DNA of 62,195 nucleotides from Clostridiaceae bacterium (GTDB taxonomy: Bacteria; Bacillota; Clostridia; Lachnospirales; Lachnospiraceae). Below are positions 36,202 to 57,646 of this stretch, one piece after another. The position numbers and the translations under genes were made by a program. The number at the start of each line of letters is the position of its first letter. The stretch's first letter is position 1. The DNA is taken from contig CAJTGF010000001.1 in assembly GCA_910575585.1 (NCBI GenBank), positions 1 through 62,195 on the forward strand. The letters run 5' to 3'. The notes under the pieces are model-generated. The model was not told where the DNA came from, made no database searches, and was given only the letters and a program-made list of their open reading frames with translations.

Positions 36202-37353
36202 ATGAAAATATTGTTTTTACAGTGGAAGTGCGTGGTGGAGCAGAAAGATTTGGAAGATGCTTTTGTTCAGGAGGGCCACAGCCTGGTAAGTTTTTGGTTT
36301 TCTCCCCGCGAGATTCTCTATGGAGATCCTTCGGGCTTTGAAAAAAATGTGACAGAGGTTATGCAGAAGGAACATCCGGATATTGTTTTTACCGTAAACT
36401 ATTATCCGGTTATTACAAATATCTGCAGTAAAAGGAAGATAAAATATGTTTCCTGGGTTTACGATTCCCCATTTGACTGGATGTATTTTAAGGAGATCAT
36501 GGATCCCTGCAATCTGGTTTACACATTCGATAAAGAGCTGGCCATGGAGTTTCACTGCGCAGGCATCAACACGGTGCAATATCTGCCGATGGCAGTGAAT
36601 ACAGATCGTTTGGATATTCTTACGGAAGGGCTGCCCATGATGTATAATGTGTCTTTTGTAGGAAATTTTTACAAGGACGCAGATTTTTTCTCCGAAAAAA
36701 GGTCCCAATTGTCTGATTATACAAAGGGGTATTTGGATGCGGTCAAGGAAGCGCAGCTGAGAATATCGGGGTATAGCCTGGTTTCAGAAGTAATTGGGGG
36801 GGCCGTTTTGGATGAGCTGAGCAAGGTGTATTTACGGTATCCCATTCCCGGTGATCTGCGGACCGATAAGTATTTTATGGCGGAGTCCGTGATCAATCCT
36901 TGGATTACATGCATAGAGCGTATGGGGCTATTGGAGACTGCGGCGAAAAATTTTGGGTTGGATCTGTTTAGCAAAGAGAGAGACTTTATTTTGCCGAACC
37001 TGAACAACCGCGGACCTGTCAGCTACTGTGACGAGATGCCTAAGGTATTCCGGCAAAGCAGGATCAATCTAAATATCAGCCGCAGGGGCATGAGAAGCGC
37101 TGTTCCTCTTCGCTGTTTTGATGTGATGGGCAGCGGGGGATTTCTTTTAAGCAATTTTCAATCCGGTTTTCTGGATATGTTTGTACCGGACCAGGATTTT
37201 GTTTTTTATGACAGCAAAGAGGATTTTGTGCAGAAGATCGGATACTATCTGGCTCATGAAGACGAGAGAGCGGCGATCGCCAAAAACGGTCATGATAAGG
37301 TTGCCGCAAAGCATACATACAGGCATCGGGTGAGGGAAATGTTCAATCAGTAA
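36202..37353 (+). CDS. CgeB-like glycosyltransferase (DUF3880/GT-B)
   Basis: A 383-residue GT-B type glycosyltransferase like those named spore maturation protein CgeB. The N-terminal half carries the DUF3880-like segment (YVSWVYDSPFDWMYFKEI), and the C-terminal half the nucleotide-sugar binding domain (RGMRSAVPLRCFDVMGSGGF). Such proteins are common near flagellar genes in Clostridia, where some modify flagellin; this is context only. First gene of the plus-strand glycan cluster. Confidence 0.8.
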   Translation: MKILFLQWKCVVEQKDLEDAFVQEGHSLVSFWFSPREILYGDPSGFEKNVTEVMQKEHPDIVFTVNYYPVITNICSKRKIKYVSWVYDSPFDWMYFKEIMDPCNLVYTFDKELAMEFHCAGINTVQYLPMAVNTDRLDILTEGLPMMYNVSFVGNFYKDADFFSEKRSQLSDYTKGYLDAVKEAQLRISGYSLVSEVIGGAVLDELSKVYLRYPIPGDLRTDKYFMAESVINPWITCIERMGLLETAAKNFGLDLFSKERDFILPNLNNRGPVSYCDEMPKVFRQSRINLNISRRGMRSAVPLRCFDVMGSGGFLLSNFQSGFLDMFVPDQDFVFYDSKEDFVQKIGYYLAHEDERAAIAKNGHDKVAAKHTYRHRVREMFNQ

Positions 37354-37373
37354 AAGAAAGAGGTGATGAGGAT

Positions 37374-38267
37374 ATGATAAAACCAGATCGGAAATTTTTT
37401 GAAAAAGAGACGCGATGCGATTTTCTGGTAGATGAAAAGATGAAGAAGATCTGGGCCGTGGAACTGGAGATGCTGCAAAGATTTGACGAGGTGTGCAAAA
37501 AGCATGATCTTACCTACTGGGTGTTTTACGGTACTCTCTTGGGGGCGGTGCGCCATCATGGTTTTGTTCCCTGGGATGATGACATTGATCTGGCTATGCT
37601 TCGGGATGACTATGAGAGATTCCAGGCCCTTGCGCCTTATGAATTTACGGAGCCCTATTTTTTCCAAAGTTCTTATACGGACAGGATCGTATGGCCGTTT
37701 TCGAAGATCAGGGACAGCAGGACCACAGGGATTGAATTTCGGGATCTGAAGGATGTGAATCAGGGGATCTTTATTGATGTATTTCCTCTGGATAGTGTGC
37801 CGAGCCTTGATGAGGCGAAAAATGATGATGTTTTTGCGACGCAGATGCTGCTGTGGAATGTTGTCACCGATCCGGCCAGGGTATTGCTGGGCGTGAAACA
37901 GGAGTTAATAGAGGGAAAAAGACGGATAGAAGACGTGCAGATCCTTCTGGATATTTCTAAAAAGGATATTAAAGAAAGGTTCCGGATTTTCGAAAACGCC
38001 AATGTCGCCCGTTTTGGAGAAACCGAGGAAGTAAACTATATAATGGGGGCCTTTGGAGGGAGTAATACTATGAAAAGGGAGTGGTTCCGGGATACGGTGT
38101 ATCTTCCCTTTGAATATATGGAGGTTCCGGTTCCGGCTGAATATGATAAGATCCTGACCCGGCGCTATGGGGATTACCATCGGCCGGTCAAAGGGGGAAG
38201 CACTCACCAGAATATTATCCTGGATCCGGATATGTCTTACAGAGAATATTTTGCCAAATACCTTTAA
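37374..38267 (+). CDS. LicD family phosphotransferase
   Basis: LicD proteins transfer phosphocholine or related phosphoryl groups from CDP-linked donors onto glycans. The diagnostic motifs GTLLGAVRHHG (residues 53-63) and PWDDDID (66-72) are intact. Length 297 residues. In this cluster, with PEP mutase and nucleotidyltransferases, a phosphonate-containing group is a plausible cargo; this is inferred. RBS GAGGTGATGAGG-like purines precede the ATG. Confidence 0.88.
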   Translation: MIKPDRKFFEKETRCDFLVDEKMKKIWAVELEMLQRFDEVCKKHDLTYWVFYGTLLGAVRHHGFVPWDDDIDLAMLRDDYERFQALAPYEFTEPYFFQSSYTDRIVWPFSKIRDSRTTGIEFRDLKDVNQGIFIDVFPLDSVPSLDEAKNDDVFATQMLLWNVVTDPARVLLGVKQELIEGKRRIEDVQILLDISKKDIKERFRIFENANVARFGETEEVNYIMGAFGGSNTMKREWFRDTVYLPFEYMEVPVPAEYDKILTRRYGDYHRPVKGGSTHQNIILDPDMSYREYFAKYL

Positions 38268-38286
38268 AGAAAGGGGAATGTCTGCT

Positions 38287-39015
38287 ATGAGTGTTCTGGT
38301 TTTATCGGATCTCCACGGCAATCTGTCCGCGTTTCAGGCAGTTCTTGACCGGGCGGCAAAGGATCATGACATCACGTCCTGCATCCTGCTGGGGGATCTG
38401 ATCGATTATGGGATGTGTTCCAATGAAGTGATCAAGATGGTTGAGAATTTGCCCTATAAGATCCTATGCAGCATACGTGGGAACCATGAGGATGCGGTGA
38501 TCCGGGACGAATACAGCCGTTTTTCTTCTGACAGGGGACGAGACAGCGCCAGATATACCAGGAGTATCCTGACGCCGGATTCCTGGGACTACTTAAACCG
38601 CAAAATGGCGCCAGATGGAAAAGCGGAATTTGCAGTTAACGGAAAGAAATGCCTGGCAATCCACGGCAGCCTAAAGGATCCGTACTGGAAGAGCATCCGC
38701 CCTGAGGAGGCGCTGGAGGAATATATCGCATATGATTACGTGTTTTCGGGACATTCCCACCTGCCCCACCTGTTTGAGCGGTACTACGGGTGCGCGGATG
38801 GAGTCAGGCGGAACAAAAAGAAAGTGGTATTTATTAATCCCGGTTCTGTGGGACAGCCGAGAAATCTAAATAACCGGGCGCAATTCGCGGTTTTGGATAT
38901 GGAAAATGAACAGATTGTTTTTGAGAAGACAGCGTACGATATTGACAAGGAACAGGCGGCCTTTTGCGGCCGGACAGACGATTTTTATCGTGAAAGACTT
39001 AGATGGGGGATTTAG
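38287..39015 (+). CDS. Calcineurin-like metallophosphoesterase
   Basis: A 242-residue protein of the YfcE/MJ0936-like group. Metal-ligand motifs are SDLHGN (residues 7-12), GDLIDYG, RGNHED and, further on, SGHSHLPH. I choose ATG 38287 because AAGGGG lies ten bases upstream and homology starts at once; an ATG nine bases earlier is too near it. Its role in a glycan cluster is unclear: it could remove phosphate from a pathway intermediate or cleave a nucleotide by-product. Confidence 0.85.
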   Translation: MSVLVLSDLHGNLSAFQAVLDRAAKDHDITSCILLGDLIDYGMCSNEVIKMVENLPYKILCSIRGNHEDAVIRDEYSRFSSDRGRDSARYTRSILTPDSWDYLNRKMAPDGKAEFAVNGKKCLAIHGSLKDPYWKSIRPEEALEEYIAYDYVFSGHSHLPHLFERYYGCADGVRRNKKKVVFINPGSVGQPRNLNNRAQFAVLDMENEQIVFEKTAYDIDKEQAAFCGRTDDFYRERLRWGI

Positions 39016-39018
39016 ACG

Positions 39019-40011
39019 ATGGATTTATATGTGATCAGCGGCGTTACAGGAATGACAGGAAACGAATTGTCCAGAAAGCTGGTGGCCGGCGGACACAGAG
39101 TCATTGGCTTTGACAATTTTTTTGCGTCTTCTATCACGACGGTGGAGGACATTTTGGAAAACCAGTGGTTTTCCTTTTATGAGTTTGACATCAATAACCG
39201 GGAGCAGATGGAAATGCTTCGGGACATGGTCCGTGAGGAGACGGAAATGGGCCGGTTTGACCGGGTGGTCTACATAAACTGCGCGGCAGTGGTCCACACG
39301 GAACATTTCTATCATGTGAACCGGACTTTTGAGACCAATGTGCTGGGAATGAAGGCTTTTTTGGAGCAGGCGGAGGCTGTGGGGGCCGATACGTTTATCA
39401 ACTGTTCCACATCCGAAGTGTACTCCATGAATTCCTGGGGAGAGCATGGGGTGGCGGAGTCGGACTATATCACCATGGCCAACGCCGAGCACAGCCAGAG
39501 AACCAGTTATGCCACGGGAAAGCTTTTGACGGAGTTTTTTATGAAGGAGGCGGTGATGGAGGGCAGGATCAAAGGCTGTTCCATCCGCTTTGCCAATGTG
39601 TACAGCAAAAATGAGCGGTATCCCAAACATATCATCCCACACATTTTGATCCAGCTGAAAGAGCATGGCGGCGTGGAACTGCTGGAGAACTCCAAGGTAA
39701 ATTACCGGACCTTTCTGCACAATGAGGACAGCTGCGGGGCGGTGATCGCTTTGATCCAGGCAGAGGACGCGCTGGACGGTTCTGTGTACAATGTGGCTAC
39801 CGACGAGGAGATCTCCATTCTTGACCTGGTGAAGCTGTGCGCCGAAAAACTGGGGATTGAAAATCCGCGGATCACCTTTAACGGGTACCGGGAGTCTGAC
39901 CCCAAAAGAAGGCTGCTGAATACGGACAAGATAAAGGCCAGGACAGATTGGAGGCCCCATATTACATTGGATCAGGGGATTGCAATGTGTGTTAAGGAGA
40001 TGGCAGATTGA
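39019..40011 (+). CDS. NAD-dependent epimerase/dehydratase (extended SDR)
   Basis: A 330-residue SDR acting on a nucleotide sugar or related substrate. The Rossmann motif reads GVTGMTGNELSRKL (residues 8-21), less canonical than GxxGxxG of GalE but spaced correctly. STSEVYS and the YATGK (YxxxK) catalytic motif are present. Starts four bases after the phosphoesterase gene and overlaps the next gene by four bases, so the three are co-translated. Confidence 0.85.
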   Translation: MDLYVISGVTGMTGNELSRKLVAGGHRVIGFDNFFASSITTVEDILENQWFSFYEFDINNREQMEMLRDMVREETEMGRFDRVVYINCAAVVHTEHFYHVNRTFETNVLGMKAFLEQAEAVGADTFINCSTSEVYSMNSWGEHGVAESDYITMANAEHSQRTSYATGKLLTEFFMKEAVMEGRIKGCSIRFANVYSKNERYPKHIIPHILIQLKEHGGVELLENSKVNYRTFLHNEDSCGAVIALIQAEDALDGSVYNVATDEEISILDLVKLCAEKLGIENPRITFNGYRESDPKRRLLNTDKIKARTDWRPHITLDQGIAMCVKEMAD

Positions 40012-40754
40012 AGATACTGATCGTAACGGTGGCAGGGCTGTCAGCCAGATTCAGCCAGTCTCTGGGATATTCCTGCCTTAAATGCTTATATTATGAGAAC
40101 CGTCCGGAAGAGTCTCTGCTGCACCGCATGCTTTGCCGGGACAGCGGATTTGACCGCTTGGTGATCGTAGGCGGATTTCTGTATGAGGAACTGGAAAATG
40201 CCCTGAAAAGGGATTTTGGGGAGTTTCAGGACAAGATCACGCTCGTGAAGAATGATCATTACGCGGATTATGGGTCCGGCTACAGCCTGTATTTGGCATT
40301 GGACAAGATCAAAGATATGGATTTTTCGGAGGCGGTGTTCGCCGAGGGGGATCTGTATGTGGACAGGGACAGCTTTCGGAAGGTCTGCAGCAGTCCGAGA
40401 AACGTGATAACCTGTAGTCAGGAACCCATATTGGCCAACAAGGCGGTGGCGTTTTACTTTGATTCCGGCTATGGGATCCATTATATTTATGATACCGAAC
40501 ACAGCGCTCTGGAGATCAGGGAACCGTTTTTGGGTATTTTTAATTCCGGGCAGATCTGGAAATTCGCGGATCCCGGGCGCCTTCGCCGGATCACGGAGTC
40601 GGCAGGGGAGAGGGAGAAGAGAGGGACCAACCTGGAACTGATCCAGCGGTATTTCGGGGATCTTTCCAGGGAGCAGTATGAGATCGTCACGTTTAAACAG
40701 TGGATCAACTGCAATACGGTCTCTGATTACCGGATGATAGAAGCAAACGAATAA
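40008..40754 (+). CDS. Nucleotidyltransferase-like protein
   Basis: A 248-residue protein resembling NTP transferase folds of the LicC type, with a divergent N-terminus (IVTVAGLSARFSQSLGYSCL) where the usual G-x-G-x-R loop and conserved lysine region would be, and the acidic metal site AEGDLYVD. Start codon TTG overlaps the preceding stop (ATTGA), with AAGGAG eight bases upstream. It probably activates a small phosphorylated group, but the altered loop leaves substrate and activity uncertain. Confidence 0.65.
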   Translation: MKILIVTVAGLSARFSQSLGYSCLKCLYYENRPEESLLHRMLCRDSGFDRLVIVGGFLYEELENALKRDFGEFQDKITLVKNDHYADYGSGYSLYLALDKIKDMDFSEAVFAEGDLYVDRDSFRKVCSSPRNVITCSQEPILANKAVAFYFDSGYGIHYIYDTEHSALEIREPFLGIFNSGQIWKFADPGRLRRITESAGEREKRGTNLELIQRYFGDLSREQYEIVTFKQWINCNTVSDYRMIEANE

Positions 40755-40775
40755 GGCGAATGTTTGGAGGATTCT

Positions 40776-42344
40776 ATGAGGAGATTTCACAGAAGGCAGC
40801 TATTGGAAAATATCAATATACTCCGGGAGGCAGGCAATGCGCTGAACGGGCAGTCAGGAGAAAAAAAGATCAATTTATGCGCGGATATACAGGAATTTAT
40901 TGCAGCTGTGCTGAGTTTTCTTGACAGCGTGGCCGGGGATGATTCCCTGCTGACAGATGGTTTTGTCCAGTTATACAGGATGCTGCTGAAGGTAAGCCGG
41001 GATGAAATCTCCTCCCAACAGCTGGTGGTTCAGATCGACGAGATGAAAGGCTATGTTGAAAGCAAAGCAGAGACAGATAAACTGGAGATGGCTTTTCTTT
41101 GCTATAAAGCCAGCATGAGCGATTGCCTGGAGAGTGTTTATCTGGCAGCGAAAGAAGATGCTGGATGTGACGCGTACTTTATTCCGATCCCGTATTTTGA
41201 CAGAACCCCGGAGGGGACAATCGGGCAGATGCATTGTGAGGCAGAAGGCTGCTATTCCGACAGGATTTTGCTGACGGACTGGAAGACGTATCGTATACAG
41301 GAACGGCATCCGGATGTTATTTTTATTATGAATCCTTATGATGAGTATAATTATATTACTACGGTCCATCCCGACTTTTATGCCAGCCGTCTGAAAGATC
41401 AGACGGAATTATTAGTATATATACCTTATTATACACATGAAGAGTCCATTGATCCCATTGTGGGATGTCTTCCGGGCGTTCTTTGGGCGGATAAGGTTAT
41501 GGTGCAGTCGGAAAAGGTGAGAGAGCAGTACATCAGCAGCATGATCCGGGAGGGGAAAGGGATTACGCCGGAAACGGCGGGGAAGAAGATAGAGGCGCTT
41601 GGATCACCGAAAACAGATAAAGTGATAACTCATAAAGCGGAAGATTATGAGATCCCCAAAGCATGGCAGAGGCTTCTGACGCCTGATGGGGCAAAAAAGA
41701 AACGGGTGGTGCTGTATAATCTATCTGTATCCTGCGCGCTGGCTCACTCTATGGAGGAGAAACAGCAGCGCTATCTGGATAAGCTGCGGCATGTGCTTGG
41801 GTTTTTCCGGACCAGAAATGATGTGATCCTGTGGTTTCGCCCCCATCCGCTGTTAGGAGAGACGTTTGCGTCCGTTCAGCCTAAGATGTATGAGGAATAT
41901 CAGAATATTATCCGGGAGTATCAGGAATGGGGCGGAGGAATCTATGATGACAGCCCGCAGCTGAACAGGGCGGTTGCCTGGGCGGACGCCTGTTATGGGG
42001 ACAGCAGTTCGGTTAACCTGCTTTTTCAGCTTGTGGGAAAACCGGTTCTTTTGCAGCGCGTGGAGGATGCCGGTAAAGAATTTGCCGTCAGGAAAACGAG
42101 GCAGCAAGTAAAAGAGCAGATGGAACTGCTGATTGGGGACCGGGAACGGTATCATTATTTTATCTATGGCGAGGCGTCGGCCGATGGACAAAAGGGAGAA
42201 TTTGCCTTAGCGGATTTTGTTGAATATATGGATGTGATCAGGGAATACGGACCGGTCCAGTCTGCCAGATACCGCGCGTGTTACGCCAATGCCGACGCAA
42301 CGGCAGGACAAAAGATCTATGAATATGTAAAAAACTTGAAATAG
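40776..42344 (+). CDS. CDP-glycerol glycerophosphotransferase-like (TagF-like) protein with novel N-terminal domain
   Basis: A 522-residue protein from ATG 40776 (GGAGG six bases upstream). Residues about 115-520 look like a GT-B enzyme of the TagF type, including FRPHPLL, the segment DDSPQLNRAVAWADACYGDS, and SSVNLLFQLVGKPVLLQ. Such enzymes polymerise or transfer CDP-activated alditol phosphates. Residues about 1-100 are a separate helical domain (INLCADIQEFIAAVLSFLDS) that is clearly homologous to the whole small protein encoded at 44860-45171. I do not recognise this domain. Confidence 0.78.
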   Translation: MRRFHRRQLLENINILREAGNALNGQSGEKKINLCADIQEFIAAVLSFLDSVAGDDSLLTDGFVQLYRMLLKVSRDEISSQQLVVQIDEMKGYVESKAETDKLEMAFLCYKASMSDCLESVYLAAKEDAGCDAYFIPIPYFDRTPEGTIGQMHCEAEGCYSDRILLTDWKTYRIQERHPDVIFIMNPYDEYNYITTVHPDFYASRLKDQTELLVYIPYYTHEESIDPIVGCLPGVLWADKVMVQSEKVREQYISSMIREGKGITPETAGKKIEALGSPKTDKVITHKAEDYEIPKAWQRLLTPDGAKKKRVVLYNLSVSCALAHSMEEKQQRYLDKLRHVLGFFRTRNDVILWFRPHPLLGETFASVQPKMYEEYQNIIREYQEWGGGIYDDSPQLNRAVAWADACYGDSSSVNLLFQLVGKPVLLQRVEDAGKEFAVRKTRQQVKEQMELLIGDRERYHYFIYGEASADGQKGEFALADFVEYMDVIREYGPVQSARYRACYANADATAGQKIYEYVKNLK

Positions 42345-42402
42345 GGTAGTCCGTCTGCTATAGTATTCTATAGAACATTATTAAAGAATAAGGCGGTGGA
42401 GT

Positions 42403-43578
42403 ATGCTGGGATTAAGTGAAAAGCTGAATATCATGAAGGAAAGCATAAAAGGGCGAAACGCAAAGGTCATGATCATAGGGCTGGGCAGCGTGGGAGGGTA
42501 TCTTCTGGACTATCTTCTCTCGTCAGGGGACAGCGGCTTGGAAGTATACGTGGCGGGGCGCAATGAAGAGAAGATGGTTTCCGATGTGAACATTGTTCGG
42601 GTGGCGTCCCTGATTCGGAACCAGAACCGGACCAATGTGGTGATCAGGTCTGACGTGGATTTGGAGGATGTGGATTCTATTGCCAGGTGCCTGGAGGAGT
42701 GCAGACCGGATATTATCGTAAATTCCAGCCGCGCGTATCCCGGACTGAAATACGGCAGCATTTCCTGGAAAAATGTGCGGGCTTACGGGATCTGGGCGCC
42801 TCTGGCCATCAAATACACGAAGAATATCATGGAGGCATGGCAGCAGGCCAAGAGCAGCGCTGTTGTGATCAACACATCCTATTCCGACGGGGTGATCCCA
42901 TGGTTAAAATCGGCGGGAAAGCCGTATCCGGATTTGGGCAGCGGCAATATTAATCACCTGATCCCCCGGATCAAGTTTGCGGCGGCAGGGGAGTGTGGGA
43001 TCCGGGATTACTGGAATATAGAGATTACCTATGCGGTCAGTCATTTTCATGATGTGGTCATCAGCAAGGAAGGGCAGACAGAAGGCGTGGAGCAGATGAT
43101 CCGTATCCGGTATGGGGAAAAGACGCTGAAACCGGATATGGATAGGATCTTCGCTGCCTGTAAGATTCCCATGCCCACAGACGCAAAGCGCAACATGATG
43201 AATGCCTCCAGCAATTTTGAGATCATACAGGGAATACTGGCGGCAGTGAGAGAGGAGAAAAAGGTCCGTCTGCACTGTCCGGGAGCTTTTGGCGAGATCG
43301 GCGGATATCCGGTGGTTATCGACGGGACAGAAAGGGAGATCAAGGCATACATCGATGAGGCGTGTTTCGACCTGGAGTCTATGAGAAGGAAAAACCGGGA
43401 GTCCATCTATCTGGACGGGATAGAAGCCATTGAAAGCGGAAGTCTTTTCTATACCGATGAACTGATCGAAAAGTGCAGGGATGCTTTTGGGATCACACTG
43501 ATGAAGCAGGTGGCGTTTGAGGAGATCGAAAGCGCGGCTAAGTTTTTGATCAGGGAAGTGATCGAAAAGCAGATTTAG
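42403..43578 (+). CDS. Saccharopine dehydrogenase-like Rossmann oxidoreductase
   Basis: A 391-residue protein with an N-terminal NAD(P)-binding motif (VMIIGLGSVGGYLLDYLL, about residues 22-39) and an INTSYSDG segment, resembling saccharopine dehydrogenase/homospermidine synthase-type folds. Substrate unknown. It sits immediately before phosphonopyruvate decarboxylase, so a role in reducing or modifying a phosphonate intermediate is possible, but nothing in the sequence proves it. Confidence 0.6.
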   Translation: MLGLSEKLNIMKESIKGRNAKVMIIGLGSVGGYLLDYLLSSGDSGLEVYVAGRNEEKMVSDVNIVRVASLIRNQNRTNVVIRSDVDLEDVDSIARCLEECRPDIIVNSSRAYPGLKYGSISWKNVRAYGIWAPLAIKYTKNIMEAWQQAKSSAVVINTSYSDGVIPWLKSAGKPYPDLGSGNINHLIPRIKFAAAGECGIRDYWNIEITYAVSHFHDVVISKEGQTEGVEQMIRIRYGEKTLKPDMDRIFAACKIPMPTDAKRNMMNASSNFEIIQGILAAVREEKKVRLHCPGAFGEIGGYPVVIDGTEREIKAYIDEACFDLESMRRKNRESIYLDGIEAIESGSLFYTDELIEKCRDAFGITLMKQVAFEEIESAAKFLIREVIEKQI

Positions 43579-43613
43579 TCAAAAGCCGGAATGAGAGGGA
43601 GGAGCGGATTAAA

Positions 43614-44732
43614 GTGAATGTTGAGAGATTGACGGAGATCATAGGGGCTGATTTTTTTACCGGGGTTCCGGATTCGCAGCTAAAGGCGCTCTGTGATCAT
43701 TTGTTCCAGAAGTACCAGACAGACCCCAGACACCATGTTATCGGGGCCAATGAAGGCAGCTGCGCGGCTATGGCAGCAGGGTATCATCTTGCCACGGGAA
43801 AGACGCCGGTGGTGTATATGCAAAACAGCGGTCAGGGAAATATGATCAATCCTACGGCCTCTCTGTTAAGCGACAAGGTCTACGGAATCCCGTGTATTTT
43901 TATCATCGGATGGAGAGGAGAGCCGGGCATTCATGATGAGCCCCAGCACGTGTATCAGGGGGAGGTAACGCTGAAACTTTTGGAGGATATGGATATAGCG
44001 GCTTTTGTCATTGACAAGGACACAACGGAGGACATGGCCCGTCACAAGATGGAGGAGTTTGGGAAGCTGCTGGAAAAGGGAAAGTGCGTGGCCTTTGTGG
44101 TCCGCAAGGGGGCGCTGCGTTACGACAAGAAAGCCGTTTATAAGAACCGCCATCTTATGAAGAGGGAGGAGATCATACGCCATGTGGCGCAGGTTTCCGG
44201 GGAAGATCCTATCGTGTCAACAACCGGCAAGGCCAGCCGGGAACTGTTTGAGATCAGAGAAGAAAAGGGGCAGGGCCACGGCTATGATTTTCTCACTGTA
44301 GGTTCCATGGGACACGCATCGTCCATTGCCGCCGGCATCGCTTTTCAGAAGCCGGATAAGAAGATCTGGTGTCTGGACGGAGACGGGGCGGCGCTGATGC
44401 ATATGGGGGCCATGGCTGTCATAGGAGCAGGCAGGCCGGACAATCTGGTCCATATCGTTATGAACAATGAGGCCCATGAAACTGTGGGAGGGATGCCCAC
44501 GGCGGCGGCTAAGGCGGATCTGCCGGGGATTGCCAGGGCCTGCGGCTATGACCGGGCGGTGACGGTGGAGGACTATGAGAGTCTGGACCGGGAGCTGCAA
44601 AAGGCCAAGTCCGGAAAAAGCCTGACTTTTATTGAAGTGAAATGCGCCATAGGGGCCCGGGAGGACTTAGGAAGGCCAACCACGACGCCGCTGCAGAATA
44701 AGCAATGGTTTATGGAGTGCCTGAAAGAATAG
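43614..44732 (+). CDS. aepY: Phosphonopyruvate decarboxylase
   Basis: ThDP enzyme that converts phosphonopyruvate to phosphonoacetaldehyde, pulling the unfavourable PEP mutase reaction forward. The N-terminal half (FFTGVPDSQLKALC; catalytic Glu47 in GANEGSC) and the ThDP motif GDGAALMHMGAM (from residue 256) with the downstream MNNEAHETVGG are characteristic of Ppd rather than acetolactate synthase. Length 372 residues is typical. The start is GTG with GGAGGAG upstream. The PEP mutase gene follows one gene later, confirming the pathway. Confidence 0.93.
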   Translation: MNVERLTEIIGADFFTGVPDSQLKALCDHLFQKYQTDPRHHVIGANEGSCAAMAAGYHLATGKTPVVYMQNSGQGNMINPTASLLSDKVYGIPCIFIIGWRGEPGIHDEPQHVYQGEVTLKLLEDMDIAAFVIDKDTTEDMARHKMEEFGKLLEKGKCVAFVVRKGALRYDKKAVYKNRHLMKREEIIRHVAQVSGEDPIVSTTGKASRELFEIREEKGQGHGYDFLTVGSMGHASSIAAGIAFQKPDKKIWCLDGDGAALMHMGAMAVIGAGRPDNLVHIVMNNEAHETVGGMPTAAAKADLPGIARACGYDRAVTVEDYESLDRELQKAKSGKSLTFIEVKCAIGAREDLGRPTTTPLQNKQWFMECLKE

Positions 44733-44859
44733 GACTGCCTGGGAAATCCTAAGGGGAATGTTTGCGGATGTTGGTTAAGACTGTAAGAAATCTGACGATA
44801 TTATAAAGAGGGGATTTACAGAATGAAGTAAGATAAAAGGCGAGAAATCGGAGGTTTTT

Positions 44860-45171
44860 ATGAACAAATTTCAGAAAAAACAGCTTTTAGGGTGTGTGGA
44901 TGTACTTTGGAAGGCAGAGGAAGAGTTGAAAGAGCAGCAGCCAGGCGCGCAGAAGATTAATTTGTGCGCGGATATGCAGGAATTTACGTTGGCTATGCTG
45001 AACTTCCTCGGTAATATCGAAGAGGAGGATGAGAAATTAACCGACTGTCTTTCCGAGTTATACAAGATGCTGCTGAAAGTCAGCCAGGATGAGATCCCTT
45101 CTGAACAGTTAGAAGCTCAGATTAATCACATCAAAGATCATGTTGAGAAGAAAGAAACCGCGGATAATTAG
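44860..45171 (+). CDS. Small orphan protein homologous to the N-terminal domain of the TagF-like protein
   Basis: A 103-residue, mostly helical, charged protein with no recognised family. It aligns over its whole length with residues 1-100 of the protein at 40776-42344: KINLCADMQEF against KINLCADIQEF, and LYKMLLKVSQDEI against LYRMLLKVSRDEI. It lies 30 bases before the PEP mutase gene and has CGGAGG upstream of its ATG. It could be a stand-alone adaptor that shares a partner with the TagF-like enzyme, or a duplicated regulatory domain. No signal peptide or membrane helix. Confidence 0.8.
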   Translation: MNKFQKKQLLGCVDVLWKAEEELKEQQPGAQKINLCADMQEFTLAMLNFLGNIEEEDEKLTDCLSELYKMLLKVSQDEIPSEQLEAQINHIKDHVEKKETADN

Positions 45172-45201
45172 GAAACAGGTTGTTCGGGGTTAGGAGGTAA
45201 G

Positions 45202-46794
45202 ATGGATAAAGCGAAAAAATTTCGGCAGCTGCTGAATGCTGACAGGCATTTTTTTCTTATGGAGGCTCATGACGGTCTTTCGGCCAAGATTGTTGAGGAG
45301 ACAGGGTTTCCGGCGATCTGGGCCAGCGGCCTGTCCATAACGGCTTCTTTAGGAGTGCGCGATAATAATGAGATCTCCTACACCCAGCTGCTTGACGTGC
45401 TGGAATATATGAATGATGCCTGCGATCTGCCCATACTGGTGGACGGAGATACGGGCTACGGGAATTTTAACAATGCATGCAGACTGGTTCAGAAGCTGGA
45501 GCAGATAGGGATTGCGGCTGTCTGCATTGAAGATAAAAAGTTTCCCAAGACCAATTCATTTTTGGAGACAAAACTTGACGCGTTGGCTGACCCTCTGGAA
45601 TTTGCAGGCAAGATTCGGGCGATGAAGGCCACCCAGAAGAATCCTGATTTTGTGGTGATCGCACGACTGGAATCTCTGATCGTAGGGGCCGGGGTTGAGG
45701 ACGCCGTGAACAGGGCGAAGATGTATCTGTCTGCCGGGGCAGATGCCATATTGGTTCATTCCAAGCGCCCCAATTCCAAGGATATCGACGATTTTCTGGC
45801 AGCCTTTGACAGGAATGTTCCGATTTTTCTTGTGCCGACCAAGTACTATACGGTGCCGGTAAGCCATCTGACCAGGGATAAAAGGGTGCGGGGCATTATA
45901 TGGGCCAATCATAATGTAAGGGCCTGTGTGACCGTGATGCAGGAGATCAGCAAAAAGATATACAACGACTGCTCCATCGCCAATGTGGAAGGGGAGATCG
46001 CGCCTGTGACAGAGATCTTCCGGCTTCAGAAGAATGAAGAGTACCTTGAGATGGAGAAGAAGTATCTGCCGGAGTATTCGAATTTAAGCGCGGTGATCCT
46101 TGCGGCGGGAGGCCCGGGACCTTTGGATTTCGAGAAGCCCAAGTCGCTTCTGAAGATCAACGGAAAAAGCATATTGGAGCATCAGCTGGATGCTTTAAGG
46201 TCCGTAAGATTGTCCAATATTACGGTTGTCAGAGGCTATAAGAGGGATGAGATACAGGCAAAGGATGTAAAACTCATCGATAACCCCAAGTGGAAGGATA
46301 CCAACGCGGCTTACTCCCTTTCTCTGGCGGTACCGGATGTAAAGGAGCCTTATCTGGTTTTGTACGGAGATGTGTTCTTTAAGCGGTATTTGTTGAGAAG
46401 CATTTTGGATTACGCGTCCGAACACCCGTCGTCGGATATGATCCTGGTATGCGTGAAGGAAGATTACATCAAAGGCGGTTATTATCTTAGGCTTAACAAG
46501 AGGCCGGATGTGTTTGGCGATGACGACGAACTGACCGTGATTGATGTCCGCAGAGAACGAGAGGCGGATAAGGATGGGGACGTGGTATATTTCAGCGGAC
46601 TGATGATGGTGAACAATCATCTGGCAGTGCAGCAGCTGCTGGAGGAAGAGGATTGTGAAAACCTGCATATCTCTGATTTTATGGGACATGCGGTGGACAA
46701 GGGGATGAAGCTGTCGGTGATCATGTCATCGAAAGAGGCGATCGTTGATATTAATCTTTTAAATGATCTGATGAAGGCCGGAGAATTACTGTAA
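45202..46794 (+). CDS. aepX: Phosphoenolpyruvate mutase fused to a nucleotidyltransferase
   Basis: Bifunctional 530-residue protein. Residues about 1-290 are PEP mutase, which isomerises PEP to phosphonopyruvate, forming the C-P bond. The signature is E110-D111-K112 with N118-S119 (EDKKFPKTNS), and VDGDTGYGNF carries the metal-binding aspartate. Residues about 296-530 are a nucleotidyltransferase (VILAAGG, EKPKSLLKINGKSILEHQ, metal site LYGDVFF), like the cytidylyltransferase domain fused to PEP mutase in some bacteria (PntC type), which activates a phosphonate as its CMP ester. The loop reads AAGGPGPLDF and lacks the usual arginine. Last gene of the plus cluster, with a terminator close behind. 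Confidence 0.93.
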   Translation: MDKAKKFRQLLNADRHFFLMEAHDGLSAKIVEETGFPAIWASGLSITASLGVRDNNEISYTQLLDVLEYMNDACDLPILVDGDTGYGNFNNACRLVQKLEQIGIAAVCIEDKKFPKTNSFLETKLDALADPLEFAGKIRAMKATQKNPDFVVIARLESLIVGAGVEDAVNRAKMYLSAGADAILVHSKRPNSKDIDDFLAAFDRNVPIFLVPTKYYTVPVSHLTRDKRVRGIIWANHNVRACVTVMQEISKKIYNDCSIANVEGEIAPVTEIFRLQKNEEYLEMEKKYLPEYSNLSAVILAAGGPGPLDFEKPKSLLKINGKSILEHQLDALRSVRLSNITVVRGYKRDEIQAKDVKLIDNPKWKDTNAAYSLSLAVPDVKEPYLVLYGDVFFKRYLLRSILDYASEHPSSDMILVCVKEDYIKGGYYLRLNKRPDVFGDDDELTVIDVRREREADKDGDVVYFSGLMMVNNHLAVQQLLEEEDCENLHISDFMGHAVDKGMKLSVIMSSKEAIVDINLLNDLMKAGELL

Positions 46795-46798
46795 AGAG

Positions 46799-46834
46799 AA
46801 AACTTTCCTGTTGATGCTTAGCGGGAAAGTTTTT
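46799..46834. terminator. Bidirectional terminator between the convergent glycan clusters
   Basis: AAAACTTTCC (46799-46808) pairs with GGAAAGTTTT (46824-46833) around a 15-base loop; T-rich on the right and, read on the other strand, TTTTCTC on the left. It can end both the PEP mutase transcript and the recombinase transcript. Confidence 0.85.
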
Positions 46835-46841
46835 CTATCTG

Positions 46842-47522
<681 letters not shown>

Positions 47523-56046: not shown

Positions 56047-57159
56047 TTACTTTTCTAAAATCTTTTTTACATGCGTAATGGTTTGGTCATCAAGCTCTGG
56101 CCTTATCTGAGACGTTTCAAACAGGATTTTAGGCGTAAGAAGGCTGTCTTCCGGCAATAAAATATCAAATAAACATGGCTTGTCATCCTTTAGCCAATCG
56201 CAGTAATGATCCAGTTCTTTATAAGATGACAGCGCTGCGGCCCTGATTCCATAAGCTTTAGCAATTTTCTGAAAATCGGGAACCGAATAGCCTCCCAAAG
56301 CGGTTGTATTCGCAAATCTGTCGTCATGTTCTAAATGCTGTGTTTCACTGATTTTACCAAGAACTTTGTTGTTTAGAATAAAAATTTTTACAGGCAGTTT
56401 TTCTCTTTTCACGGTCTCCAATTCCTGAATATTCATTTGAAAACCACCGTCCCCAGTAATACAATAAGTAATCATATTTCCCAGAGCAACAGACGATCCT
56501 ATCGCGAAGGGGAGGCCGCATCCCATCGTGCCATAACCGCCGCTGATATGGATTCTTCCTTTATCGCCCTTCAATACCAGAGATTGCGCGCACCAGCACT
56601 GATGCATGCCCACATCAACGGAAACAATTGGGTTTGGAGGTAATAATGATCCGATTTTTTCAACAGCATGGTTCCCGGGCTGTTTATCATAATGATCCAG
56701 TATTCTCTTCGCCTCCATACACTGATTTTTCCAATCCGAGTAGTCAGAGTCTGTTTCCGAAAGAAGCATTCGCATAAAATCCCTGGCATCTGTTTGAAAC
56801 TTTTTTTCGTTTTCTTTAATATTACGGCTTAATTCATATTCATCAATATCACATCGCGCCAATTCTGCTTTTGGAGCAAAATTATCCGTATATCTCCCAA
56901 CCTGACGGATTCCTAACCTTGCCCCTACACTGACAATCAGATCACATTCATTAAGAATCATATTGGCAATTCGATTACCATGTGTTCCAATGAATCCAAT
57001 ATGTAGATGATCCTGTGCAAGGTCCACGCCATTCATCGTAGTTAAAACTGGTATATTCGTTTTACGGGCAAATTCATGAACCATATCAACCGCGTTCGCG
57101 CTCCGTACTCCATTACCCACCAGCAATACTGGCTTGCTGTATGTCGAGTGGAAAATCAA
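56047..57159 (-). CDS. ThDP-dependent acetolactate synthase-like enzyme, C-terminal fragment (frameshifted)
   Basis: Carries the central FAD/nucleotide-like domain (SKPVLLVGNGVRSANAV) and the C-terminal ThDP-binding domain with ITGDGGFQMNIQELETVKRE and the closing ILNN. The frame opens at 57159 in a different register from the upstream fragment, and the first meaningful residues (KPVLLVGNG) directly overlap the DNA that ends the N-terminal fragment. About 25-35 residues of the usual interdomain linker are missing, so an out-of-frame deletion split the gene. It may still be translated from an internal start but would lack the N-terminal catalytic glutamate. Confidence 0.8.
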   Translation of the reverse strand: MIFHSTYSKPVLLVGNGVRSANAVDMVHEFARKTNIPVLTTMNGVDLAQDHLHIGFIGTHGNRIANMILNECDLIVSVGARLGIRQVGRYTDNFAPKAELARCDIDEYELSRNIKENEKKFQTDARDFMRMLLSETDSDYSDWKNQCMEAKRILDHYDKQPGNHAVEKIGSLLPPNPIVSVDVGMHQCWCAQSLVLKGDKGRIHISGGYGTMGCGLPFAIGSSVALGNMITYCITGDGGFQMNIQELETVKREKLPVKIFILNNKVLGKISETQHLEHDDRFANTTALGGYSVPDFQKIAKAYGIRAAALSSYKELDHYCDWLKDDKPCLFDILLPEDSLLTPKILFETSQIRPELDDQTITHVKKILEK

Positions 57160-57646
57160 TGATTACACCTCCTTTCCGCCCCAGCAGCGCCATATTATAA
57201 GCGCGGCTGACTATATCAGGAAATCCTTCACTGCTGTTAGCTGTTACAGAGTATTTTGTAATATTTCTTGTCATTGACACAATATCCATCTCCTGAAATC
57301 CGTTTTGCCGGATACCTGAAAAACCTTTCATCTCATTGATCGGTACATTGCCGCAGATCCCCATCACTGGGTATCCGTCAAACCAGGCATCCGCCAGTCC
57401 GCCCAGGCCATTTACCGCGCCTGGGCCGGATGTTGTAAAATAAACACCTATTTTTCCGCTTGTTCTGGCAAATCCGTCAGCTGCCAAGGAACAGCCTTGC
57501 TCATTGTAGCAGACATGGGTTTTTATCTTATTCTTCTGCCTGTACAGCGCGTCCATAAAAGGTACAATGTATCCTCCTGCATAGCCAAATACGTCCGTTA
57601 CTCCGTGATTGATCAGGAAATCAACTAAATATTCAGAACAGTTCAA
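57113..57646 (-). CDS. ThDP-dependent acetolactate synthase-like enzyme, N-terminal fragment (frameshifted)
   Basis: The 177-residue fragment contains the N-terminal ThDP/PYR domain: GYAGGYIVPFMDAL, the catalytic Glu49 in CYNEQGCSLAADGFAR, and TTSGPGAVNGLGGLADAW. It ends shortly after the domain border (IDFPLDIQ) where the frame is lost. The start codon is TTG 57646, which overlaps the stop of the aminotransferase fusion gene (ATTGA), so the two were once translationally coupled. Together with the following fragment it is an inactivated or damaged ALS-like enzyme gene. Confidence 0.8.
   Translation of the reverse strand: MNCSEYLVDFLINHGVTDVFGYAGGYIVPFMDALYRQKNKIKTHVCYNEQGCSLAADGFARTSGKIGVYFTTSGPGAVNGLGGLADAWFDGYPVMGICGNVPINEMKGFSGIRQNGFQEMDIVSMTRNITKYSVTANSSEGFPDIVSRAYNMALLGRKGGVIIDFPLDIQQASIAGG

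Follow-up and report, generated by a model that had tools for sequence, protein, structure and literature searches.

The stretch analysed here (the window: 62,195 nt of contig CAJTGF010000001.1, assembly GCA_910575585.1, from a bacterium of the family Lachnospiraceae) carries an operon of ten plus-strand genes at 36202–46794, with intergenic gaps of −4 to 127 bases (Table 1). In order, these encode a CgeB-like glycosyltransferase, LicD, a metallophosphatase (MPase), an extended short-chain dehydrogenase/reductase (SDR), the nucleotidyltransferase DUF6564, a TagF-like protein, an oxidoreductase (Ross), phosphonopyruvate decarboxylase (Ppd), a 103 aa protein, and phosphoenolpyruvate mutase (PepM) fused to an NTP_transf_3 domain. 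The initial annotation described a phosphonate locus in which intact PepM and Ppd lie with surface-glycan transferases, including LicD and the CgeB-like protein; the locus is real and this description is supported. To its gene list are added the metallophosphatase at 38275, the gene at 44860, and a four-gene block, MPase-SDR-DUF6564-Ross. This block recurs with PepM in other genomes, in loci having neither a class V transaminase (AT) nor an iron-type alcohol dehydrogenase (Fe-ADH), and is proposed to be a third, uncharacterised branch from phosphonoacetaldehyde.

Table 1. Features of the phosphonate operon in the window, with the matches on which each assignment is based.
Feature	Position	Strand	Match or property
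CgeB-like / DUF3880 glycosyltransferase	36202–37353	+	PF13524 106 bits; PF12996 60 bits
LicD-family phospho(no)transferase	37374–38267	+	PF04991 161 bits
Calcineurin-like metallophosphatase (MPase), block gene 1	38275–39015	+	PF12850 74 bits
Extended SDR (epimerase/dehydratase/decarboxylase type), block gene 2	39019–40011	+	PF01370 96 bits
DUF6564, LicC/PntC-type nucleotidyltransferase, block gene 3	40008–40754	+	PF20202 310 bits
TagF-like protein, N-terminal domain of ~100 aa	40764–42344	+	PF04464 (E≤1) in 3/6 alignment members
Ross, NAD(P)-dependent oxidoreductase, block gene 4	42403–43578	+	PF03435 26.9 bits (cut-off 25.1)
Phosphonopyruvate decarboxylase (Ppd)	43614–44732	+	TIGR03297 450.8 bits (curated cut-off 312.5)
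Stand-alone copy of the TagF-like N-terminal domain (103 aa), directly before PepM	44860–45171	+	48 % identity over 102 aa
PepM, C-terminal fusion to NTP_transf_3 domain without signature Arg	45202–46794	+	TIGR02320 332.5 bits (curated cut-off 319.55); PF12804 52 bits
Terminator-like hairpin at operon end, after PepM	46798–46834	+	17-pair stem, 4 G-C pairs, tail CTATCTGTTA; consensus match only (17 sites found versus shuffle mean of 11.2)

Both PepM and Ppd exceed their curated cut-offs, and PepM also matches the solved PEP mutase 1m1b (344 bits) and keeps the EDKxxxxxNS motif, as EDKKFPKTNS. Searches with both window proteins as queries found no second copy of either in the genome, two further matches to the PepM query falling on its nucleotidyltransferase half. 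By family, PepM would convert phosphoenolpyruvate to phosphonopyruvate, which Ppd would decarboxylate to phosphonoacetaldehyde. From there the fate of the intermediate was described as open, and this is supported; neither of the usual enzymes was matched in the locus. Three AT references and two Fe-ADH references gave no match at E≤0.01 anywhere in the window or at E≤0.001 in 120 kb of the contig, which was the extent of the Fe-ADH search, and across the genome the transaminase model PhnW (TIGR02326) found weak partial matches alone, the best scoring 42 bits where the cut-off is 400.8.

The block was found in the same order in all 14 loci known to carry it, in 13 genomes: the window; G669 (two loci); G677; G267; G150; G743; G860 (L118); G870; Clostridium porci (L005); metagenome-assembled genomes (MAGs) of Mediterraneibacter (L006), Defluviitaleaceae (L007, equivalent to G165), and Eubacteriales (L009); and UC5.1-1D2 (L010), in which several genes are fragmented. 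PepM accompanies the block in 14/14 and Ppd lies within the locus in 12/14, the other two (L009 and L118) having a strong Ppd elsewhere in the genome. The window is alone among the 14 in having a TagF-like gene between DUF6564 and Ross. Loci that were found via PepM cannot test a link to PepM, therefore Ross was used alone as the query in two surveys, both of which counted the window's own genome. Eight matches were obtained in 295 order-level genomes, four strong (E≤3e-57) and four weak over part of the protein, and four matches in 299 Lachnospiraceae genomes; the strong matches in both surveys all adjoin PepM. Across the 299 genomes the association of Ross and PepM has a Fisher p of 1.1e-4 (0.001 without the window), values that are a guide only, as related genomes are not independent. 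Full-length DUF6564 (≥290 bits) is present in exactly the same four of the 299 genomes as Ross, while partial matches (≤34.1 bits) occur in 20 more, several of them within other PepM-fused nucleotidyltransferase domains.

In the same sample, PepM was identified by TIGR02320 in 32 of the 299 genomes, namely the window's and 31 others, one per genus (31 genera). Counts from a 530 aa query at E≤1e-40 were not used, as it missed the other PepM type (G150, G669, and G677). Among the 31 other PepM loci, 13 have an AT, 11 an Fe-ADH, three the block, and four (L132, L136, L137, and L139) none of these; no locus carries two of the three. With the window included, an AT or Fe-ADH is present in 0/4 loci with the block and 24/28 without it (Fisher p=0.0019), and there is no match at E≤0.01 to these references in any of the 14 block loci, ten of which are beyond the survey. 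Detection was by the three AT and two Fe-ADH references in stretches of 6–22 kb, some ended by the contig, so that other kinds of aminotransferase or distant genes could escape it. The AT and Fe-ADH routes together explain 24 of the 32 surveyed PepM genomes, and the block is a further, exclusive and self-contained set. The oxidoreductase at 42403, named in the initial annotation as a candidate to act on phosphonoacetaldehyde, is supported as such, in that it recurs with PepM and only in loci lacking both usual enzymes.

Two genomes carry the block beside other routes. G677 has one block locus and one Fe-ADH locus, and G669, of the same genus as the window, has the block and the AT in two loci each, an Fe-ADH in one, and Ppd in two more loci that are composed differently. 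The block loci of G669 keep their own PepM and Ppd despite routes to 2-aminoethylphosphonate (AEP) and 2-hydroxyethylphosphonate (HEP) in the same cell, and this retention therefore favours a distinct product. In all, seven Ppd genes in G669 are over the cut-off (L176, L186–L191), spread over three or more kinds of phosphonoacetaldehyde locus.

In Ross, the match to a known family is confined to the Rossmann domain. All seven members match PF03435 at E≤1, and about 90 residues from the start of the Rossmann part resemble carboxyspermidine and saccharopine dehydrogenases (8deb, E=1.2e-4, widest profile). The C-terminal two thirds, unlike those enzymes, have no PDB match of note and no Pfam or NCBIfam match, whether by sequence profile or by searches with each member. 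A C-terminal catalytic domain of the saccharopine dehydrogenase type is not supported: in profile–profile comparison with the saccharopine-dehydrogenase-like L146 and L147 (L148 was left out) the local alignment ends at 88 columns (85 % probability) and the global alignment has two columns. Arg53 is invariant in the seven close sequences aligned; an Arg at such a Rossmann position is a mark of NADPH preference, and this suggests that Ross may use NADPH. Carboxyspermidine dehydrogenase, which carries out reductive amination with aspartate semialdehyde, provides a model for one reading of Ross, and both reduction of phosphonoacetaldehyde to HEP and its reductive amination fit. No paper joining phosphonoacetaldehyde, saccharopine dehydrogenase, and phosphonate was found in the open-access library searched. 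Full-length distant relatives of Ross (23–30 % identity) occur on plasmids (13 records) and in a phage (one record); that of Vibrio phage Va2 (L223:8914–10065) is annotated as hypothetical and has no PHROG match.

For activation, the initial annotation looked to PepM-linked cytidylyltransferases, and this idea fares better for a separate protein than for the fused domain. The domain fused to PepM reads AAGGPGPLDFEKPK where LicC has AAGLGTRLRPLTENTPK, so that the Arg of the GxGxR signature is lost, and this Arg is absent from all 13 C-terminal PepM fusions inspected by eye, including that of the near twin L004. DUF6564 keeps the signature Arg (Arg14, invariant in seven aligned sequences), and its profile matches LicC (1jyk, 2e-9) and PntC-AEPT (6pd1, 8e-7). 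Because the fused domain has lost its signature Arg, DUF6564 is the better candidate for activation and may take the place held by PntC in AT loci. PntC has been reported to form CMP-AEP (PMC6697681). In the other two block proteins, the MPase motifs GD-x2-DYG, GNH, and GHSH are invariant in seven aligned sequences, the window's included, and the best solved relatives of the SDR profile are UDP-glucuronate decarboxylases. No paper on DUF6564 was found in the open-access library searched; the block gives a first candidate role for DUF6564 and for the Ross family.

Comparison of the block loci shows that the operon is a mosaic, in which PepM comes from a cassette lineage other than that of the block. 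The loci fall into two types, A and B (C. porci type). Ross, SDR, MPase, and DUF6564 of the window are 42–75 % identical to those of type A versus 23–35 % to type B, and Ppd sides with type A (60–69 % versus 28–35 %), while PepM is 65–81 % identical to type B versus 30–35 % to type A. In trees of 13 rows (the broken L010 was left out), the A/B split is supported at 100/100 in all four block genes, with the window beside G677 of the same genus (80/86 to 100/99), and for PepM the window lies inside the B clade at 100/100. Approximately unbiased (AU) tests, for groups named after the trees had been seen, reject placing the window PepM with G677 (p=4e-5) and the window Ross with type B (p=0.003). 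The fusions differ also, a type-A PepM (L033) having a CTP_transf_like domain at its N-terminus and type B an NTP_transf_3-type domain at its C-terminus. As the block occurs with either fusion, it is the block rather than the PepM fusion that is the conserved unit. An assembly chimera is unlikely, because the arrangement is shared by L004, a MAG contig from a separate assembly that is 99.64 % identical over 21.6 kb.

The operon was originally placed behind a flagellar operon. This position holds, yet there is more to it than position, since flagellar genes flank the island on both sides. Before the operon, at 10.0–35.0 kb, is a flagellar and chemotaxis run (by Pfam, FliF, FliG, the export ATPase, FlhB, FlhA, CheD, and a CheW-response-regulator protein). 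After it, glycan genes continue to about 86 kb, judged mostly by eye from the starts of open reading frames (ORFs), making an island of about 50 kb in all, with Pfam matches to GDP-mannose dehydratase and LicD, and with DegT aminotransferase and NeuB at 67.8–75.8 kb; a mannose-1-phosphate-guanylyltransferase-like gene is also nearby. Beyond the island are FliD (88.1 kb), FliS (90.7 kb), FliW (93.0 kb), FlgK (95.3 kb), and two flagellins (105.7 and 106.7 kb), followed by another CgeB/DUF3880-type glycosyltransferase at 108.9 kb; the genome has a third flagellin-like match on a different contig. In L118, flagellin, a DUF3880 glycosyltransferase of the same type, PepM, LicD, and the block occur together. 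AEP has been reported on the N-acetylglucosamine of Clostridioides difficile flagellin, in a species that by the same account is negative for pepM, with the source of its AEP left open (PMC8861647). Because of this precedent, flagellin is the likeliest acceptor, by analogy, and the window locus could supply the phosphonate from within. Complete phosphonate synthesis is placed within a flagellar glycan island in a member of the Lachnospiraceae, and this is relevant to where flagellin phosphonate originates. A resolvase gene (46842–47477) follows the operon and the G+C content falls from 0.49 (pepM) to 0.40 (46.8–61.7 kb), because of which the operon end is likely to be an island boundary.

The explanation proposed, with a probability of roughly 55 %, is that the genes form a phosphonate operon for flagellin glycosylation (surface glycan), with a third branch from phosphonoacetaldehyde. 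In it, the block would replace the class V transaminase that leads to AEP or the PhpC-type Fe-ADH that leads to HEP. Ross, probably NADPH-dependent, would reduce or reductively aminate phosphonoacetaldehyde, DUF6564 would make the CMP-activated phosphonate in PntC's place, SDR and the phosphatase would tailor the head-group or the nucleotide conjugate, and LicD and the TagF-like protein would transfer the phosphonate to a glycan, that of flagellin being the most likely. The analysis establishes the gene families, the recurrence and mutual exclusivity, the mosaic origin, and the flagellar context; the reactions beyond phosphonoacetaldehyde, the CMP activation, and the acceptor are inferred. The suggestion of an unusual final phosphonate is plausible, and through the block a phosphonate that may be new could be reached directly. 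A more specific version, in which Ross would join phosphonoacetaldehyde to an amine, with CMP activation of the N-substituted aminoethylphosphonate by DUF6564, tailoring by SDR and phosphatase, and attachment to flagellin, is modelled on carboxyspermidine dehydrogenase and is a speculative and rather unlikely account of what would be an undescribed phosphonate.

Several observations weigh against the proposed explanation. Apart from the window, 13 block loci were fetched, and only three of the stretches (L006, L009, and L118) include flagellin; one of 24 surveyed AT/Fe-ADH loci (L111) and the AT locus L008 from outside the survey have it too, and several block loci lie, by eye, among capsule-like genes. 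Co-occurrence of the block and PepM is no proof of a reaction. The four PepM loci out of 31 with none of the three enzyme sets mean that there are more than three kinds, and the two AT loci of the same type in G669 mean that parallel loci need not differ in product. The SDR could be making an ordinary nucleoside diphosphate (NDP)-sugar, and Ross resembles known families over its Rossmann domain alone. Lastly, no annotated phosphonate gene is present in six neighbourhoods of distant Ross relatives (one phage and five plasmids), these relatives adjoining alanine racemase and HAD hydrolase genes on four rhizobial plasmids and other genes elsewhere; the Ross family is therefore wider than phosphonates.

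Among the alternatives, the phosphonate may go to a capsule or a teichoic acid-like polymer, the flagellar position being incidental. This is a real possibility, although not the favoured one, and would be compatible with the chemistry proposed; the TagF-like and LicD proteins, the two mannose-related genes nearby, and the capsule-like surroundings of some block loci speak for it, while the flagellar genes that flank the island at either end and the flagellin beside the block in three loci speak for flagellin. It is less likely, but to be taken seriously, that Ross is a non-homologous phosphonoacetaldehyde reductase making ordinary HEP, with SDR, MPase, and DUF6564 making a companion NDP-sugar. 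New chemistry would then be unnecessary, and both the Rossmann fold with its NADPH-type Arg and the likeness of the SDR profile to UDP-glucuronate decarboxylases would be accounted for; however, the four genes stay together as a unit, none of the 299 genomes has full-length DUF6564 without Ross, and two genomes with an Fe-ADH locus still keep the block. A diffusible bioactive phosphonate, such as PepM clusters elsewhere yield, is very improbable, as there is no ligase or exporter among the ten operon genes (Pfam matching all but two of them) and LicD and a glycosyltransferase are present instead.

An ordinary AEP locus served by a transaminase outside the operon, which would make AEP for activation and attachment, is also improbable. 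In its favour, AEP is carried by C. difficile flagellin (PMC8861647) and CMP-AEP is a known activated form (PMC6697681). Against it, the class V references match in 0/14 block loci, and the best PhnW-like match of the genome, at 42 bits, compares with 257 bits for the AT in the genome of L008. The aminotransferase fusion at 57643, which the initial annotation offered as a second candidate for phosphonoacetaldehyde, is unlikely in that role, being class I/II and HisC-like, unlike the class V enzymes of the 13 AT loci, and encoded on the minus strand in a gene set of its own. In the fetched stretches of the other 13 block loci nothing matches its aminotransferase half, except for a nucleotidyltransferase match in L120 that overhangs by 12 residues. 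Apparent relatives of the fusion were rejected, a 541 aa gene in L118 being a nucleotidyltransferase-choline kinase fusion and the ORFs of two L120 matches (297 and 309 aa) being too short.

The AEP capsule of Bacteroides fragilis, made by AepX, AepY, and AepZ, is likewise a surface-glycan phosphonate formed via PepM and Ppd, and AepX has an N-terminal CTP_transf_like domain that the type-A PepM of L033 resembles; the window differs in that the transaminase is replaced and the setting is flagellar rather than capsular. PntC phosphonyl-tailoring loci (Rice et al., 2019; PMC6697681) also combine PepM, fused to or beside nucleotidyltransferases, with Ppd and LicD or glycosyltransferases, and differ in having a class V AEP transaminase where the window has the block. 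PF12804 is fused to about 33 % of Ppm in the survey of that paper; in the window, the fused PF12804 domain lacks the signature Arg. The HEP branch of PhpC (PMC9381506) similarly joins PepM and Ppd to an oxidoreductase for phosphonoacetaldehyde, which is an Fe-ADH there and, in the window, a Rossmann protein that is unrelated to it and has three genes as partners. The type A flagellin glycan of C. difficile with 2-AEP (PMC8861647) is a clostridial flagellin phosphonate, and in the window the phosphonate genes are within the flagellar island. No paper was recognised as describing the block in the open-access library searched, PMC9381506 and PMC12366243 included.

Among the remaining genes of the operon, the label TagF-like is fair but weak, PF04464 matching some members of its alignment and the window protein itself having no confident Pfam match; TagF-like relatives directly precede PepM in all five type-B loci. 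The 103 aa gene is preceded by GGAGG, and its product has no Pfam match. Its origin by recent duplication of the TagF-like N-terminal domain is unsupported, as it shares 48 % identity with the window copy and 42 % with the C. porci copy, and those two share 39 %. The MPase start at 38275 was picked downstream of an overlap with LicD, the ORF list having given 38167. On the minus strand of the window, an acetolactate-synthase-like thiamine pyrophosphate (TPP) enzyme is split into frames 57113–57646 (TPP_N) and 56047–57159 (TPP_M and TPP_C), which overlap at 57113–57159.

Other arrangements were seen around PepM and Ppd in the loci compared. In L132 (8417–11466), genes for a nucleotidyltransferase and then an Ldh_2 dehydrogenase (271 bits) come after PepM, in a genome without a Ppd over the cut-off; phosphonopyruvate is perhaps reduced here rather than decarboxylated. 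PepM and Ppd occur with an APS-kinase-like gene in L070 (8133–12213), which also has an extra CTP_transf_like gene, and in L137 (7552–14402), a variant that L072 resembles by ORF starts. In L139 (5976–9845), Ppd and PepM lie beside a nucleotidyltransferase-rhomboid fusion. In G669, L190 (6770–10327) has Ppd with class II aldolase-like and HAD genes, no PepM being seen in the stretch, and L188 (426–10056) has Ppd with a transketolase-like gene, PepM also being present.

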